Source: Candidatus Altimarinota bacterium (lineage in GTDB: Bacteria; Patescibacteriota; Gracilibacteria; BD1-5; UBA6164). Taken from it: DNA of 64,000 bases. Each line of letters starts with the position of its first letter. The stretch's first letter is position 1. Positions 47,607-52,172 of the stretch are shown piece by piece. Made by a program: the position numbers and the translations under genes. A model generated the notes under the pieces. That model was not told the DNA's origin. It did not search any database and worked only from the letters and a program-made list of their open reading frames with translations. Where the stretch lies: positions 26,017 to 90,016 of the forward strand of contig JAAXWG010000006.1 of the NCBI GenBank assembly GCA_013350285.1, read 5' to 3'.

Positions 47607-50600
47607 ATGTATAACCATAAAGAAATAGAATCTCGTTGGCAAAAATTTTGGGAAGAAAATAAAACTTTTAAAACTTTTAACCCCGGGGTTGGAAAACCCC
47701 CGGGGTTGGAAAAACCAAAATATTATTGTCTTGATATGTTTCCCTATCCGAGTGGAGCAGGACTTCATGTAGGTCATCCTGAAGGCTATACCGCAAATGA
47801 TATTGTGGCAAGATATAAACATGCTTGTGGGTATAATGTCCTTCATCCAATGGGGTGGGATGCTTTTGGACTTCCTGCTGAAAACTATGCAATCAAGACA
47901 TGAACTCATCCAAAAATTACAACAAATAAAAATATAGAAACTTTTAAAAAACAAATTAAGTCTCTTTGATTTAGCTATGATTGGGAAAGAGAAATAGATA
48001 CGACTGATCCAAAATATTATAAATGGACTCAATGGATATTTTTAAAATTGTTTGAAGCATGACTTGCTTATGAACAAGACTTGCCAATAAATTATTGTCC
48101 AAGTTGTAAGACGGGGCTTGCAAACGAAGAAGTTTTGAACGATTTCACCTGTGATAGATGTGGGACAAAAGTAGAAAAAAGACAATTAAGACAATGGGTA
48201 CTTGCAATTACAAAATATGCAGAAAGGCTTTTGCATGATGTAGATAAATTGGATTGGCCAGAAGGAATAAAAGATATGCAAAGAAATTGGATAGGAAAAA
48301 GTGAAGGGTGTGAGTTTGAAATGAAAAAAGATGATGATAAGAATAAAAGTATAAGAGTTTACACAACTCGTATAGATACTGTTTTTGGTATGACTTATGC
48401 AGTGCTTGCTCCTGATCATCCACAAGTTATGGATTTTATAACTTCAGAACAAAAAGAGATTTGTTTACAATATATAGAAGAATCAAAGAAAAAATCAGAC
48501 CAAGATAGAACTGCAGACAATAAAGAAAAAACTTGAGTGTTTACGGGGACTTATTTAATAAATCCTTATAATAATGAAAAAGTCCCACTTTGGATAGCTG
48601 ATTATGTACTATGAAATTATGGAACTTGAGCCGTTATGGCAGTTCCAGCACATGATGAAAGAGATTTTGAGTTTGCAAAAAAGTATAATTTGGAGATTAA
48701 AAAAAGTATTGCAGAGTCTTTTATTTGAATTGGATGAGGTCAAGAAATTCCACAAAAAGATAAACAAACAAATAAAACAGCAGGAATTGCATGAGTTATA
48801 GAAAATAATAAAGGAGAAATTCTTCTTCTTAATTGGAAAAAAACAGGACGGAATTCATTTGTTACAGGAAAATTAAATGAAAATGAAGATCCAATAGATA
48901 CTGTTTTAAGAGAAATAAAAGAAGAAACTGGATATACTGATTTAATAATTGAAGAATGACCTTATATAGCTTTTGTAAAACATTATCATAAAGGGAAAGA
49001 TTATAATGTTGAATGATATGTTTATTGATTTCATCTTAAACTTCTCTCAGATAAAAGAGAAGAAATAAAAAAAGAAGAAGAAGAAAAACATACTTTTTCT
49101 TGGTATACAAAAGAGGAAGCTGAGAAGAAAATAAATATTGCTTCTCATAATGAAATATTTTCTTATTTTTTTAAGAAAAAAGAAGCATTTACGAATGATT
49201 GAGTTTTAGTAAATTCCAAAGATTTTGATTGATTTACAAGTGAGGAAGCTCGTCAAAAACTTACAGAATTTGCAGAAAAAAACTGATTTTGAACAAAAAA
49301 AATAAATTACAAACTAAGAGATTGGCTTTTTAGTCGCCAAAGATATTGGGGAGAACCAATTCCTTTGATACATTTACAAAAAGAAGATTATGAGAAATTA
49401 CCAAGGATTAGGTCAGAAAATCCCCCAATCCCTAACCCTTTCCCCCCAAGGGAGAAAGGGGACTGAGATGAAAAATATAGTTCTTTTTTTAAGAAAACAC
49501 CGGATTACATAACAAAATTAAGTCAAGAATTGAGAAAAAATCCGACAAAGACAGAAGAAATTATATGGGAAATTTTAAGAGGAAAAAATTTAGGAGTAAA
49601 ATTTAGAAGGCAACATCCATTTGGTAGGTATATAGCCGATTTTTATAGCGATGAACAAAAACTTGTTATAGAAATAGATGGAGGAATTCACGAAAGTGCA
49701 AAACAAAAAGAATATGATGAAATTAGAGATGAAATAATACAAAAATACTCTGTAAAAATTTTAAGAATCAAAAATGAAGAAATCAAAAACGATTTAGAAA
49801 ATGTAATACAAAAAATTATTTCTTCCTTTTCTACTCCTTTCTCCCTCGGGGGGAAAGGCTGGGATAGGGGGACTTCTTCACTCCTTTCTTCCTCATGAGG
49901 AAATGCTAGGATAATGGAAGATAATTGTAATTATGCTTACATCGTAGAAAAACTTCCAACTTACACGATTATAGAAAAAAGTCTTTCTCCTCAAAATGTG
50001 CTAAAACTTAAGGATTTTTGAAATCTTGAAATAGAAAAAGAAGATATTGATCGGTGAAAATTCTTCAAACTCAGTGTCAGTCAAGAAAAAGAAGAGGAAC
50101 TTATAAATTTTTTGAAAGAAAATCTTATCACAAAAACAAAAGAACAATGAGGAAATTGGTATGCTGATAGTATGAGAACTTCTAATAAAATAATTTTTAA
50201 TGGGAAAGTTTTTGATATACAAACGAAAAAAGATTTAGTTGATGTTAAAAATTATGGATTATCGGTGTGAGTTCCAGAAAAAGAACTAGAAATAGAATTT
50301 CAGGAAGCAAAAACTTGAGAATATTTATATATCGGTTGAAAAGAGTTTTCTAAAATTTACGACGGACTTTATACAAAAATGGTCTGTGATTATACTCTTC
50401 CTCTTGAACTTCCAGAAGTCAAAGATTATGAACCAAGTGGTGATGGAAATTCTCCGCTGGCAAAAATAGAAAATTTTGTAAATGTAAAACTTGCAGAAAA
50501 TCTGAGCGGAAAAAGAGAAACAAATACAATGCCTCAGTGGGGGGGAAGTTGCTGGTATTATCTCAGATATATGGATCCACACAATGAAAATGAGCTCGTA

Positions 50601-52172
50601 AATCCTGAAGTAGAGAAATATTGGGGGCAGGTTGATAGCTATGTTGGGGGAGCTGAGCATGCCGTTCTACATCTCCTTTATGCAAGATTTTGGCATAAAT
50701 TCCTTTTTGATATTTGAGTAGTGTCATCAGATGAACCTTTTTATAGACTGAGAAATCAAGGACTCATACTCGCCCATGCTTTCCAAAGAAAAAATGGAGG
50801 ACTCGTGGCAAATGATTTGGTAGAAGAAAAAAATGGAAAATATTATCTCATAGAAACGGGTGAAGAACTCAATAGAATTGTCTCTAAAATGAGTAAATCT
50901 CTCAAAAATGTTGTCAATCCTGATGAAATCGTAAATGAATATTGAGCCGATGCTCTGAGGCTTTATGAGATGTATATGGCAGATTTTAAAGATGCTGCTC
51001 CGTGGGATAGCAAAGGAATTGTCTGAGTTTCTCGTTTTCTTGATAAAGTATGGAGAATTTTTATGGAGGAAAAAAGATTTGCTGAGAGTGATGAAGAAGC
51101 GATGAAAACTTTGCATAAAACAATAAAAAAAGTTGGAGAAGATATAGAAAATTATAAATTTAATACTGCCATTGCCCAGTTAATGATTTGTGTAAATACA
51201 GGACTTCCAAAAGATGAATTACTTCAAGAAGAGTGGAGAGAGAATTTTCTCATCATTTTGCATCCTTTTGCTCCTCATATTGCTGAGGAATTATTTCAAA
51301 ATCTCAAAAAAGATGAAATAAAAAAAGCCTATCTTGCTACAGGAAATAAAAATAAAATGACTCGTCTCCAAATGGTGATAGAAAAAAATAATCTTCCTCT
51401 TTCTATACATCAATATCAAGAGTATCAAGAAGTTGAAGAAACAGGAAATACTGCTTTAGAAAATGCTTTGCAAAAGATAGAACCATATAAGGCAAAAAAA
51501 AGACAATTTCCAATTATTACAACAGATTCTTGAATGTATTTTGATTGAATAGTAGAAAATCCTACTTATGTAAAAAGAAATGCTTTGAAATTCGCAGGAC
51601 TTGATGAAAAATCTTGTAATCAAGAACAAATAGCCGAAGCAATGAGTAATTATTATAAAAAACTTGCAAGAGAAAATGGGGGAACACTTGATTTTCATTA
51701 TGAAGATGCTTGGGTAATACTTCTTCCAAATGATACTATTCTTACTCATAGCTATAAAAGAGAATATACTCTTACAGATAAAGAAAATGGACCAAGGGAT
51801 ATATATTTTCCGATGAGAAACCTTTATATTTCCAAAATTACAGGAAAATATGCTTACGAGCAAACAGAAGAAGATACAAAAAAAGAATTTGATTGTATGA
51901 GAGAAATGCTAGAAAAATTATTTTCTGATTCTATTTTCTTTGCTTCTTGGCCACAATATGATGAAAAGATGACAATTGATGACACAATAAAGATATGAGT
52001 TCAGGTCAATGGAAAACTTAGAGGAGATATAGAAATTACAAAAAATGAAAGCCAAAGTTCAGCTCTCCAAAAAGCAAAAGAAAATGTAGATATCCAGAAA
52101 TGGATAGAAGGACACGAAATAATCAAAGAAATTTATGTTCCGTGAAGGATTGTGAGTATAATAATTAAGTAA
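47607..52172 (+). CDS. leuS: Leucyl-tRNA synthetase with inserted Nudix, DUF559 and Ham1-like domains
   Basis: Charges tRNA-Leu. One uninterrupted frame of 1521 residues, against about 800-870 in the family. LeuRS landmarks appear in order: HVGH (54-57), WDAFGLPAENYA, the CP1 editing core GTGAVMAVPAHDERDFEF (339 onward), NYKLRDWLFSRQRYWGEPIP (about 568-586), RETNTMPQWGGSCWYYLRY, KMSKS (1094-1098), HPFAPHIAEELF, and C-terminal SWPQYDE with VQVNGKLRG. Insertions: a palindromic repeat near residue 25; a Nudix domain at about 375-527 within CP1; a DUF559 nuclease bounded by inverted repeats at about 605-756; an unassigned stretch at about 765-924; and a Ham1-like domain at about 1237-1438 just before SWPQYDE. 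Removing them leaves a normal-size LeuRS. Whether the product is processed or works as one chain is unknown. Confidence 0.95.
47679..47709. repeat. Paired CCCCGGGG palindromes at the leuS N-terminus
   Basis: AACCCCGGGGTT and, four bases on, AACCCCCGGGGTT. They encode FNPGVGKPPGLE, inserted just before KPKYYCLDMFPYPSG. Two similar palindromes occur at 62401-62433. Confidence 0.8.
48729..49187 (+). other. Nudix hydrolase domain inserted in the LeuRS editing domain
   Basis: Residues about 375-527 of LeuRS. GVIENNKGEILLLNWKK is a Nudix first strand pair; GKLNENEDPIDTVLREIKEETGY (421-443) fits the Nudix box G-x5-E-x7-R-E-U-x-E-E-x-G-U at every defined position. Nudix enzymes hydrolyse nucleoside diphosphates linked to another group. 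The insertion lies between AHDERDFEFAKKYNL and DGVLVNSKDFDGF, which are contiguous in ordinary bacterial LeuRS. Confidence 0.88.
49420..49874 (+). mobile_element. DUF559 nuclease cassette with inverted-repeat ends, inside leuS
   Basis: The left end (49420-49465) and right end (49833-49874) are imperfect reverse complements of about 42 bp (CCCTTTCCCCCC side against GGGGGGAAAGG side, with ATCCCCC and GGGGGACT outermost). Between them, KNPTKTEEIIWEILRGKNLG, FRRQHPFGRYIADFYSDEQKLVIEIDGG and KILRIKNEEI form a complete DUF559 domain, a Vsr-like single-strand-nicking endonuclease fold. The cassette is in frame with leuS. A version with the same ends but no nuclease lies at 63884-63991. Confidence 0.75.
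51315..51920 (+). other. Ham1/RdgB-like NTP pyrophosphatase domain inserted in LeuRS
   Basis: Residues about 1237-1438. YLATGNKNKMTRLQMVI matches the Ham1 start (ATGN..K), EETGNTALENALQKI the E-G-T-..EN-A..K motif, and ITTDSGMYFDG the DSG motif. The rest is divergent. Ham1 enzymes remove deaminated purine triphosphates such as dITP and XTP. It lies between HIAEELFQNL and the LeuRS segment SWPQYDE, a site in the anticodon-binding region. Confidence 0.75.

Follow-up and report, generated by a model that had tools for sequence, protein, structure and literature searches.

The gene leuS is situated at 47607–52172 on the forward strand of a 64,000 nt stretch of DNA (the window) from a Candidatus Altimarinota bacterium of the Gracilibacteria (GenBank assembly GCA_013350285.1, contig JAAXWG010000006.1, positions 26,017 to 90,016) and encodes, in genetic code 25, a leucyl-tRNA synthetase (LeuRS) of 1521 aa that carries several inserts. 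The frame is open over all 1521 codons, ends with TAA and contains 31 internal TGA codons, read as Gly, with no other inner stop; no frame break was seen within it and the LeuRS blocks are preserved in relatives. For orientation, the frames of SerRS and PheRS alpha within the window comprise 419 and 355 codons.

The leuS frame and its LeuRS core

When the product was run against the NCBIfam model TIGR00396 (leuS_bact) a score of 1011.9 bits (cut-off 548.4) was obtained over four stretches, both HVGH and KMSKS were identified and Pfam revealed NUDIX, DUF559 and Ham1p_like together with the LeuRS domains. Alignment with the Thermus LeuRS (1h3n) gave five blocks (residues 2–368, 526–591, 928–1057, 1094–1230 and 1439–1520) and skipped residues ~369–525, 592–927 and 1231–1438 plus a short stretch at 1058–1093, and nearly all of the extra sequence is therefore located in three regions. 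The features identified are as follows.

47679–47709, no strand assigned: short palindromic insert, rich in GC, that codes for NPGVGKPPG close to the N-terminus, not present in P0002 (the closest LeuRS found, see below)
48282–48716, + strand: first part of the CP1 editing domain (residues 226–370; Pfam)
48717–49181, + strand: insert at site B, Nudix domain (residues 371–525; Pfam 392–512; box GKLNENEDPIDTVLREIKEETGY)
49182–49382, + strand: resumption of the LeuRS core, with the motif SRQRYWGEPIP (residues 526–592; Thermus alignment)
49418–49459, + strand: left inverted-repeat end of the DUF559 unit
49509–49823, + strand: DUF559 nuclease-family domain (residues 635–739)
49836–49875, + strand: right inverted-repeat end of the DUF559 unit
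49873–49913, + strand: second, diverged copy of the repeat at the right end (41 nt, 78%)
49914–50315, + strand: orphan segment (~residues 770–903), to which the segment of unassigned origin in the first-pass annotation corresponds
50382–51302, + strand: LeuRS core, catalytic second half with KMSKS and the anticodon-binding domain (residues 926–1232)
51303–51926, + strand: insert at site D, Ham1-like (ITPase-fold) domain (residues 1233–1440)
51927–52169, + strand: LeuRS C-terminal domain (residues 1441–1521; Thermus alignment)

Compared with bacterial LeuRS (TIGR00396; Thermus 1h3n) all core blocks, HVGH, KMSKS, the editing domain and their order are alike, whereas the protein described here contains ~650 additional residues, nearly all within three loops. 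Known inserts of LeuRS are the editing domain and other synthetase-specific domains, not whole hydrolases. No second LeuRS was found in the same genome (1.28 Mb, completeness scored 98.06%), and the leuS product is predicted to be a complete leucyl-tRNA synthetase. The first-pass annotation of the window had described a single 1521-residue LeuRS frame with inserts, and on this Pfam, TIGR00396 and the Thermus alignment agree; its proposal that the enzyme domains lie in two separate regions of the synthetase is borne out by their Pfam positions. It had also stated that no LeuRS with this set of domains is known to have been described, and none was found in the literature searched by titles and abstract openings, nor was any account of DUF559 as an in-frame mobile unit. 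A survey of domain insertions (PMC13114784) counts the LeuRS editing domain as an insert and does not mention Nudix or Ham1.

Nudix and Ham1-like domains in LeuRS of the family

The NUDIX match (residues 392–512) reached 3.8e-13 and 50.1 bits against a cut-off of 21.1. The consensus of the Nudix box is GX5EX7REUXEEXGU, and the box, previously described as perfect at every position, fits it in all but the last, where Tyr is found and not an aliphatic residue. In a predicted structure of residues 205–930 the Nudix part is confident (pLDDT blocks 81–97) and the editing fold is retained around the insert (4k47, TM by target 0.85), the mean pLDDT of this model being 62.5 with poor values outside the Nudix and editing parts. 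Box and confidently modelled fold are thus shared with Nudix hydrolases (PF00293), the difference being the location inside the editing domain of a synthetase.

For the domain at site D the Ham1p_like match (residues 1242–1346, 1.4e-10) covers profile positions 2–103 of 186 only. The N-terminal TGNxxK, E, K and D of Ham1/RdgB are phosphate/metal residues, and N1247, K1250, E1278, K1290 and D1307 are invariant in 33 out of 33 Ham1-like domains, embedded and free, and agree with the letters of RdgB. A model of residues 1131–1521 (mean pLDDT 86.8) matches LeuRS 5omw (2.2e-10) and HAM1/ITPase 6wwd (9.5e-9), as well as RdgB 1k7k, 2pyu and 2q16. Fold and N-terminal phosphate/metal residues are shared with the Ham1/RdgB/ITPase family (PF01725), while the domain is here embedded in LeuRS and its C-terminal half is diverged, with a conserved FPMxxLY motif of its own; from its sequence it is classed as Ham1-like and not as RdgB. 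The presence of Nudix, DUF559 and Ham1-like domains, as read in the first pass, is upheld by matches above the Pfam cut-offs or by profile search of the translation; the orphan segment is modelled with low confidence.

Since the genus holds no genome other than our own (G000), the comparison was made at the level of the family (48 genomes, own included), with the LeuRS regions of relatives translated under code 25. LeuRS ranges from 842 to 1522 codons in this family and four insert sites were identified, given here in the residue numbering of the leuS product.

Site A, residues ~240–248: start of the editing domain
Site B, residues 369–525: end of the editing domain
Site C, residues 592–905: after SRQRYWG.PIP
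Site D, residues 1233–1440: between the anticodon-binding and C-terminal domains

Site B could be read in 44 of the 48 genomes (unreadable in G011, G026, G036 and G038), as could site D (unreadable in G001, G004, G011 and G036). Among 39 LeuRS rows, 13 have an insert of Nudix size at site B; nine of these fit the box pattern, three (G013, G015, G032) have Asp in place of the first Glu and one (G024) has no box. Together with G047, which lies outside the 39 rows and aligns continuously through Nudix, this gives Nudix in 13/44 (nine exact, three Asp variants and G047). Ham1 is found at site D in G000, G007, G008 and G012–G019 (11/44; in G016 read across two contigs), and both domains co-occur in G000, G007, G013, G015 and G016. 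The two inserts are recurrent in the family and not standard.

Other inserts occur at the same sites. At site A, ~201 residues of serine-hydrolase type are found in G003, G005, G024 and G031 (Pfam 1.8e-18 for G003; 6e-4, under the cut-off, for the G005 piece; the other two typed by length and motif) and a ~150-aa domain of unassigned type in G009, G028 and G039 (L039, L042, L048), which by eye is present twice in G009 (also at site C, L039) and in its G028 copy gave nothing above the Pfam cut-off. An assignment of the site-C insert of G004 to ASCH led nowhere, the match (E 0.084) being below the cut-off. Sites C and D of some enzyme-free relatives contain peptides such as SPQPSPQGEG or PPNPPLAGEG; DNA hairpins of 7–10 pairs were found at site D in G027, G028, G040 and G042, and stems of no more than 6 pairs in G008 (site C) and G032 (site A). 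The place at site C that is occupied by DUF559 in our genome holds in many relatives, L058 and L010 among them, a Cys-rich stretch of ~36 aa (SC..VSCGCGHIRE or RCKNCDC..GC) with the look of a small metal-binding knuckle.

P0002 (1388 aa), the closest LeuRS found, is 76% identical in Nudix, 64% in Ham1, 86–87% in two long core blocks and 74–80% in two short ones. It lacks DUF559, the orphan segment and the N-terminal palindrome and carries a PDDEXK_3 nuclease at site A instead; between these two proteins the enzymes therefore persist while the nucleases differ.

When searching the family genomes for PF01725 (E up to 1e-3) matches were found in 24 of the 48. In each of the 11 genomes with an embedded Ham1 this is the sole match, and the 13 others match elsewhere; no probability was put on this overlap of 0/11 because the genomes are related. 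Of these matches elsewhere 18 regions were read, and membership of the embedded subfamily was confined to two copies, that of G006 and that of G042, the latter on the contig of leuS at a distance of ~8 kb. In both genomes (L051, L052) the free Ham1-like gene adjoins a serine-hydrolase gene that is likewise free (Pfam 1.2e-11 and 1.4e-18), and the families of this gene pair occur as LeuRS inserts elsewhere.

Outside the family, a protein search restricted to LeuRS-sized proteins revealed six further LeuRS with a Ham1-like domain, and a scan of named genomes gave five loci of the subfamily, one free (L189) and four inside LeuRS (a Gracilibacteria metagenome-assembled genome, Falkowbacteria, Kuenenbacteria and Patescibacteria STD1_130). 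The subfamily profile matched 67 of 379 phylum genomes, mostly weakly, and 13 regions from 12 genomes were read. Ham1 lies within LeuRS at site A in G050, G327, G411, G095 and G127 (the last over two contigs), in tandem with Nudix in G095 and G127. Free copies with the same orientation as leuS are located directly upstream of it in G077 and close to it in G361, where one long frame intervenes and the region contains no more than the first part of leuS. Free copies away from leuS were found in G061, G210, G112 and G056, and in G312 Ham1 is fused to a non-LeuRS protein. In a tree of 34 Ham1 rows the free, site-A and site-D copies are interleaved; site A requires six changes, at least four of them forced by well-supported branches, and site D two changes, a single origin there still being compatible. 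The G112 and G056 copies group with the RdgB outgroup and are probably outside the subfamily. Ham1 is found joined to LeuRS more often than a single fusion would give.

Whole enzymes are not restricted to LeuRS. The IleRS of our genome (1633 aa; L093:572-5470, - strand, contig C4) contains two histidine phosphatases together with a serine hydrolase and a peptide of palindrome type, and the five longest IleRS read from relatives (1425–1932 aa) were found to contain one to three histidine phosphatases each, a serine hydrolase in three cases and Nudix in two; many IleRS of the family are only ~1030–1070 codons. RecG of our genome (842 codons; L314:259-2784, + strand, contig C2) carries a GNAT acetyltransferase domain before the TATPIPRT motif. 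The earlier suggestion that this genome tolerates whole enzymes in important proteins is thereby extended to IleRS and RecG. In the LeuRS of G050 (1795 residues; L221:3477-8861, + strand) HAD, Ham1 and Nudix were matched, as were nucleotidyltransferase-type domains (one of these below the cut-off), and a second Ham1-like stretch was recognised by eye. As a control ValRS was read; all 42 near-full-length frames of the family are unloaded (872–919 residues), the gene being found only in pieces in G010, G028 and G038 and not at all in G001, G007 and G018.

The DUF559 unit and other palindromic sequences

The DUF559 match in LeuRS (residues 635–739) is strong (2.2e-28; 98.8 bits, cut-off 20.6) and the domain is 49% and 39% identical to two others in the same genome. 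PF04480 was found at 97 places in 33 of the 48 family genomes, within LeuRS in G000 only. At 19 of the 78 places read the domain is embedded in a host gene and at 59 it is free or joined at one end. The hosts are LeuRS (G000), RecG (12 genomes), MnmA (two), PriA, TsaD, RecQ and a NadM/NadR-type nucleotidyltransferase, and in RecG the site lies directly after the Walker A helix in 12/48 family genomes. For every kind of host one example was checked: RecG, MnmA and TsaD are above the NCBIfam equivalog cut-off and RecQ above a subfamily cut-off, for PriA only the cut-off of the Pfam 3'BD domain was passed and for the nucleotidyltransferase a domain cut-off only, the remaining hosts being assigned from reading of the flanks. 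The embedded domain is in frame across both junctions in 18/19 cases. Among the matches listed from 145 phylum genomes, with G000 as the sole member of the family, no RecG running through a DUF559 unit was found. Three phage records with DUF559 (31–39% identity) led nowhere.

When tested against 60 shuffles, the inverted-repeat ends scored above all of them in 15 of 18 embedded copies (L082, L106 and L114 fail) and in 7 of 15 testable free copies; the test covered every embedded copy but L124 and a minority of the free ones. Another 23 partial copies of the left end of the LeuRS unit are present in the genome. Among the nine best, seven are in frame within long frames and two are not, six of the seven being located in apparently one paralogous gene family.

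Compared with free DUF559 proteins the domain is the same, while the embedded copies reside within other enzymes. A nuclease-family gene at one conserved site, as after Walker A of RecG in 12 family genomes, is reminiscent of homing endonucleases. Unlike inteins and introns, the unit stays in the protein frame; no Hint/intein domain was matched in LeuRS by Pfam at E up to 1, and Rfam over 47500–52300 (E up to 0.1) gave no intron family and nothing above the gathering score, the sole weak match being a snoRNA model (E 0.09, below that score). The nearest known kind are the Rickettsia palindromic elements, which according to a review (PMC10969869) are in-frame inserts in many genes. Both consist of palindromic DNA in frame in unrelated protein genes, a likeness by type only, and differ in that some units here bear DUF559 between inverted repeats and the host belongs to the Gracilibacteria.

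The orphan segment next to it gave 15 candidate homologues, none significant, and a low-confidence structure model. A first match of G009 to residues 803–1236 had suggested that the segment is shared; this was rejected, as the site-C insert of G009 differs and resembles that genome's own site-A insert. Further palindromes are found in the window. Those at 21705–21724 and 23289–23308 lie in two similar, adjacent frames (20362–21933 and 21946–23523) and code in frame for TPPARSSLPPQSRGTQGG-like peptides, and at 62402–62433 a twin AACCCCGGGGTT palindrome, alike in kind to the N-terminal insert of LeuRS, adjoins a TTTCCCCCCAAGGGAG end.

Explanations for the loaded LeuRS

The explanation preferred here, at a probability of roughly 0.65, is that the Nudix and Ham1-like domains in the LeuRS loops are likely still working as tethered nucleotide pyrophosphatases and that DUF559 is probably a mobile passenger which arrived recently and, by prediction, is translated as a loop. 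Small hydrolase genes would have been captured into permissive loops of LeuRS, and likewise of IleRS and RecG, after which the free gene would be lost and the embedded hydrolase retained for continued house-cleaning of the cell. The DUF559 unit would spread through DNA cutting and copying into conserved genes and survive by leaving the frame of its host open. The first-pass annotation had hinted at one functional set of three inserts. With regard to DUF559 this is not supported, because the unit is found inside unrelated genes and is absent from P0002, which shares Nudix and Ham1; all inserts as a single nucleotide-quality-control set were rejected since DUF559 occurs also in RecG, MnmA and others.

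Several observations weigh against the preferred explanation. The substrate of the Ham1-like domain may differ from that of RdgB, because the profile is matched in its first part only and RdgB occupies 38% of the columns of the Ham1 tree alignment. Ham1 is not always needed, as 24/48 family genomes have no match. Palindromic ends were looked for in sequence on the Nudix and Ham1 inserts and none were found, and the unloaded ValRS is not explained by a purely permissive-loop model. Concerning DUF559, the PriA host frame stops 199 codons past the unit, short of a full PriA, and in RecG of G025 the frame is lost 31 residues after the unit, near the end of a contig, so not every host is proven whole. 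Among the inverted-repeat passes, those of L104 and L108 have a margin of a single point, and another window at the L108 locus (L085) fails.

A dedicated quality control, in which Ham1-like and Nudix domains serve LeuRS itself and couple charging to nucleotide clean-up (for example of Ap4A, abnormal NTPs or misactivated aminoacyl-AMP from the active site), is regarded as doubtful. In its favour, the Ham1 subfamily is present in LeuRS of Gracilibacteria (site D) as well as of Falkowbacteria, Kuenenbacteria and other Patescibacteria (site A), the site-A rows change repeatedly in the tree, a free copy directly precedes leuS in G077 and another lies close to it in G361, Nudix and Ham1 are in tandem in G095 and G127, and ValRS was never found loaded. 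However, IleRS bears histidine phosphatases and a serine hydrolase and RecG a GNAT, so that embedding is not peculiar to LeuRS chemistry, six free copies of the subfamily were read and four of them (G006, G042, G061, G210) do not adjoin leuS, and no biochemical link is known, which counts against it as well. Neutral accretion, with the loops as landing pads and all inserts tolerated passengers without a selected role, would agree with the palindrome-type peptides at sites C and D of relatives and with the turnover of nucleases between close relatives. It is considered improbable, given the Ham1 active-site residues that are constant in all 33 domains and a Nudix box that is either exact or has one Glu replaced by Asp in 12/13 Nudix-sized inserts, both despite low identity.

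That the DUF559 unit is absent from the protein, removed at the RNA level or bypassed in translation, is very unlikely; its inverted-repeat ends could form a stem and several units sit beside conserved motifs in an intron-like manner, but removal would not demand that 18/19 embedded copies keep the frame, free of stops, across both junctions, and no Rfam intron family was matched in the gene. Least credible of all is an assembly artefact or decayed pseudogene. Repeats such as the 23 other partial copies of the left end are a known cause of misjoins, but the frame is open over 1521 codons in the sole LeuRS found, the DUF559 domain is distinct from the two others of the genome and similar architectures are present in other genomes.

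Core translation enzymes are usually regarded as architecturally fixed. LeuRS of 842–1522 codons in one family and 1795 elsewhere in the phylum, against ValRS of 872–919, would offer a natural experiment on what lets certain synthetases, and not others, take up whole enzymes. With the repeated joining of Ham1 to LeuRS a functional linkage of the two becomes a specific claim that can be tested, and charging may be linked to nucleotide quality control. The in-frame DUF559 units would be a nuclease-bearing counterpart to the selfish palindromic elements of Rickettsia. In a wider picture, offered tentatively, LeuRS and IleRS of Gracilibacteria and related Patescibacteria may serve as carriers of whole enzymes, with Ham1 built in at two loops for clean-up after the synthetase and a protein-resident DUF559 mobile element that may have invaded the same proteins.

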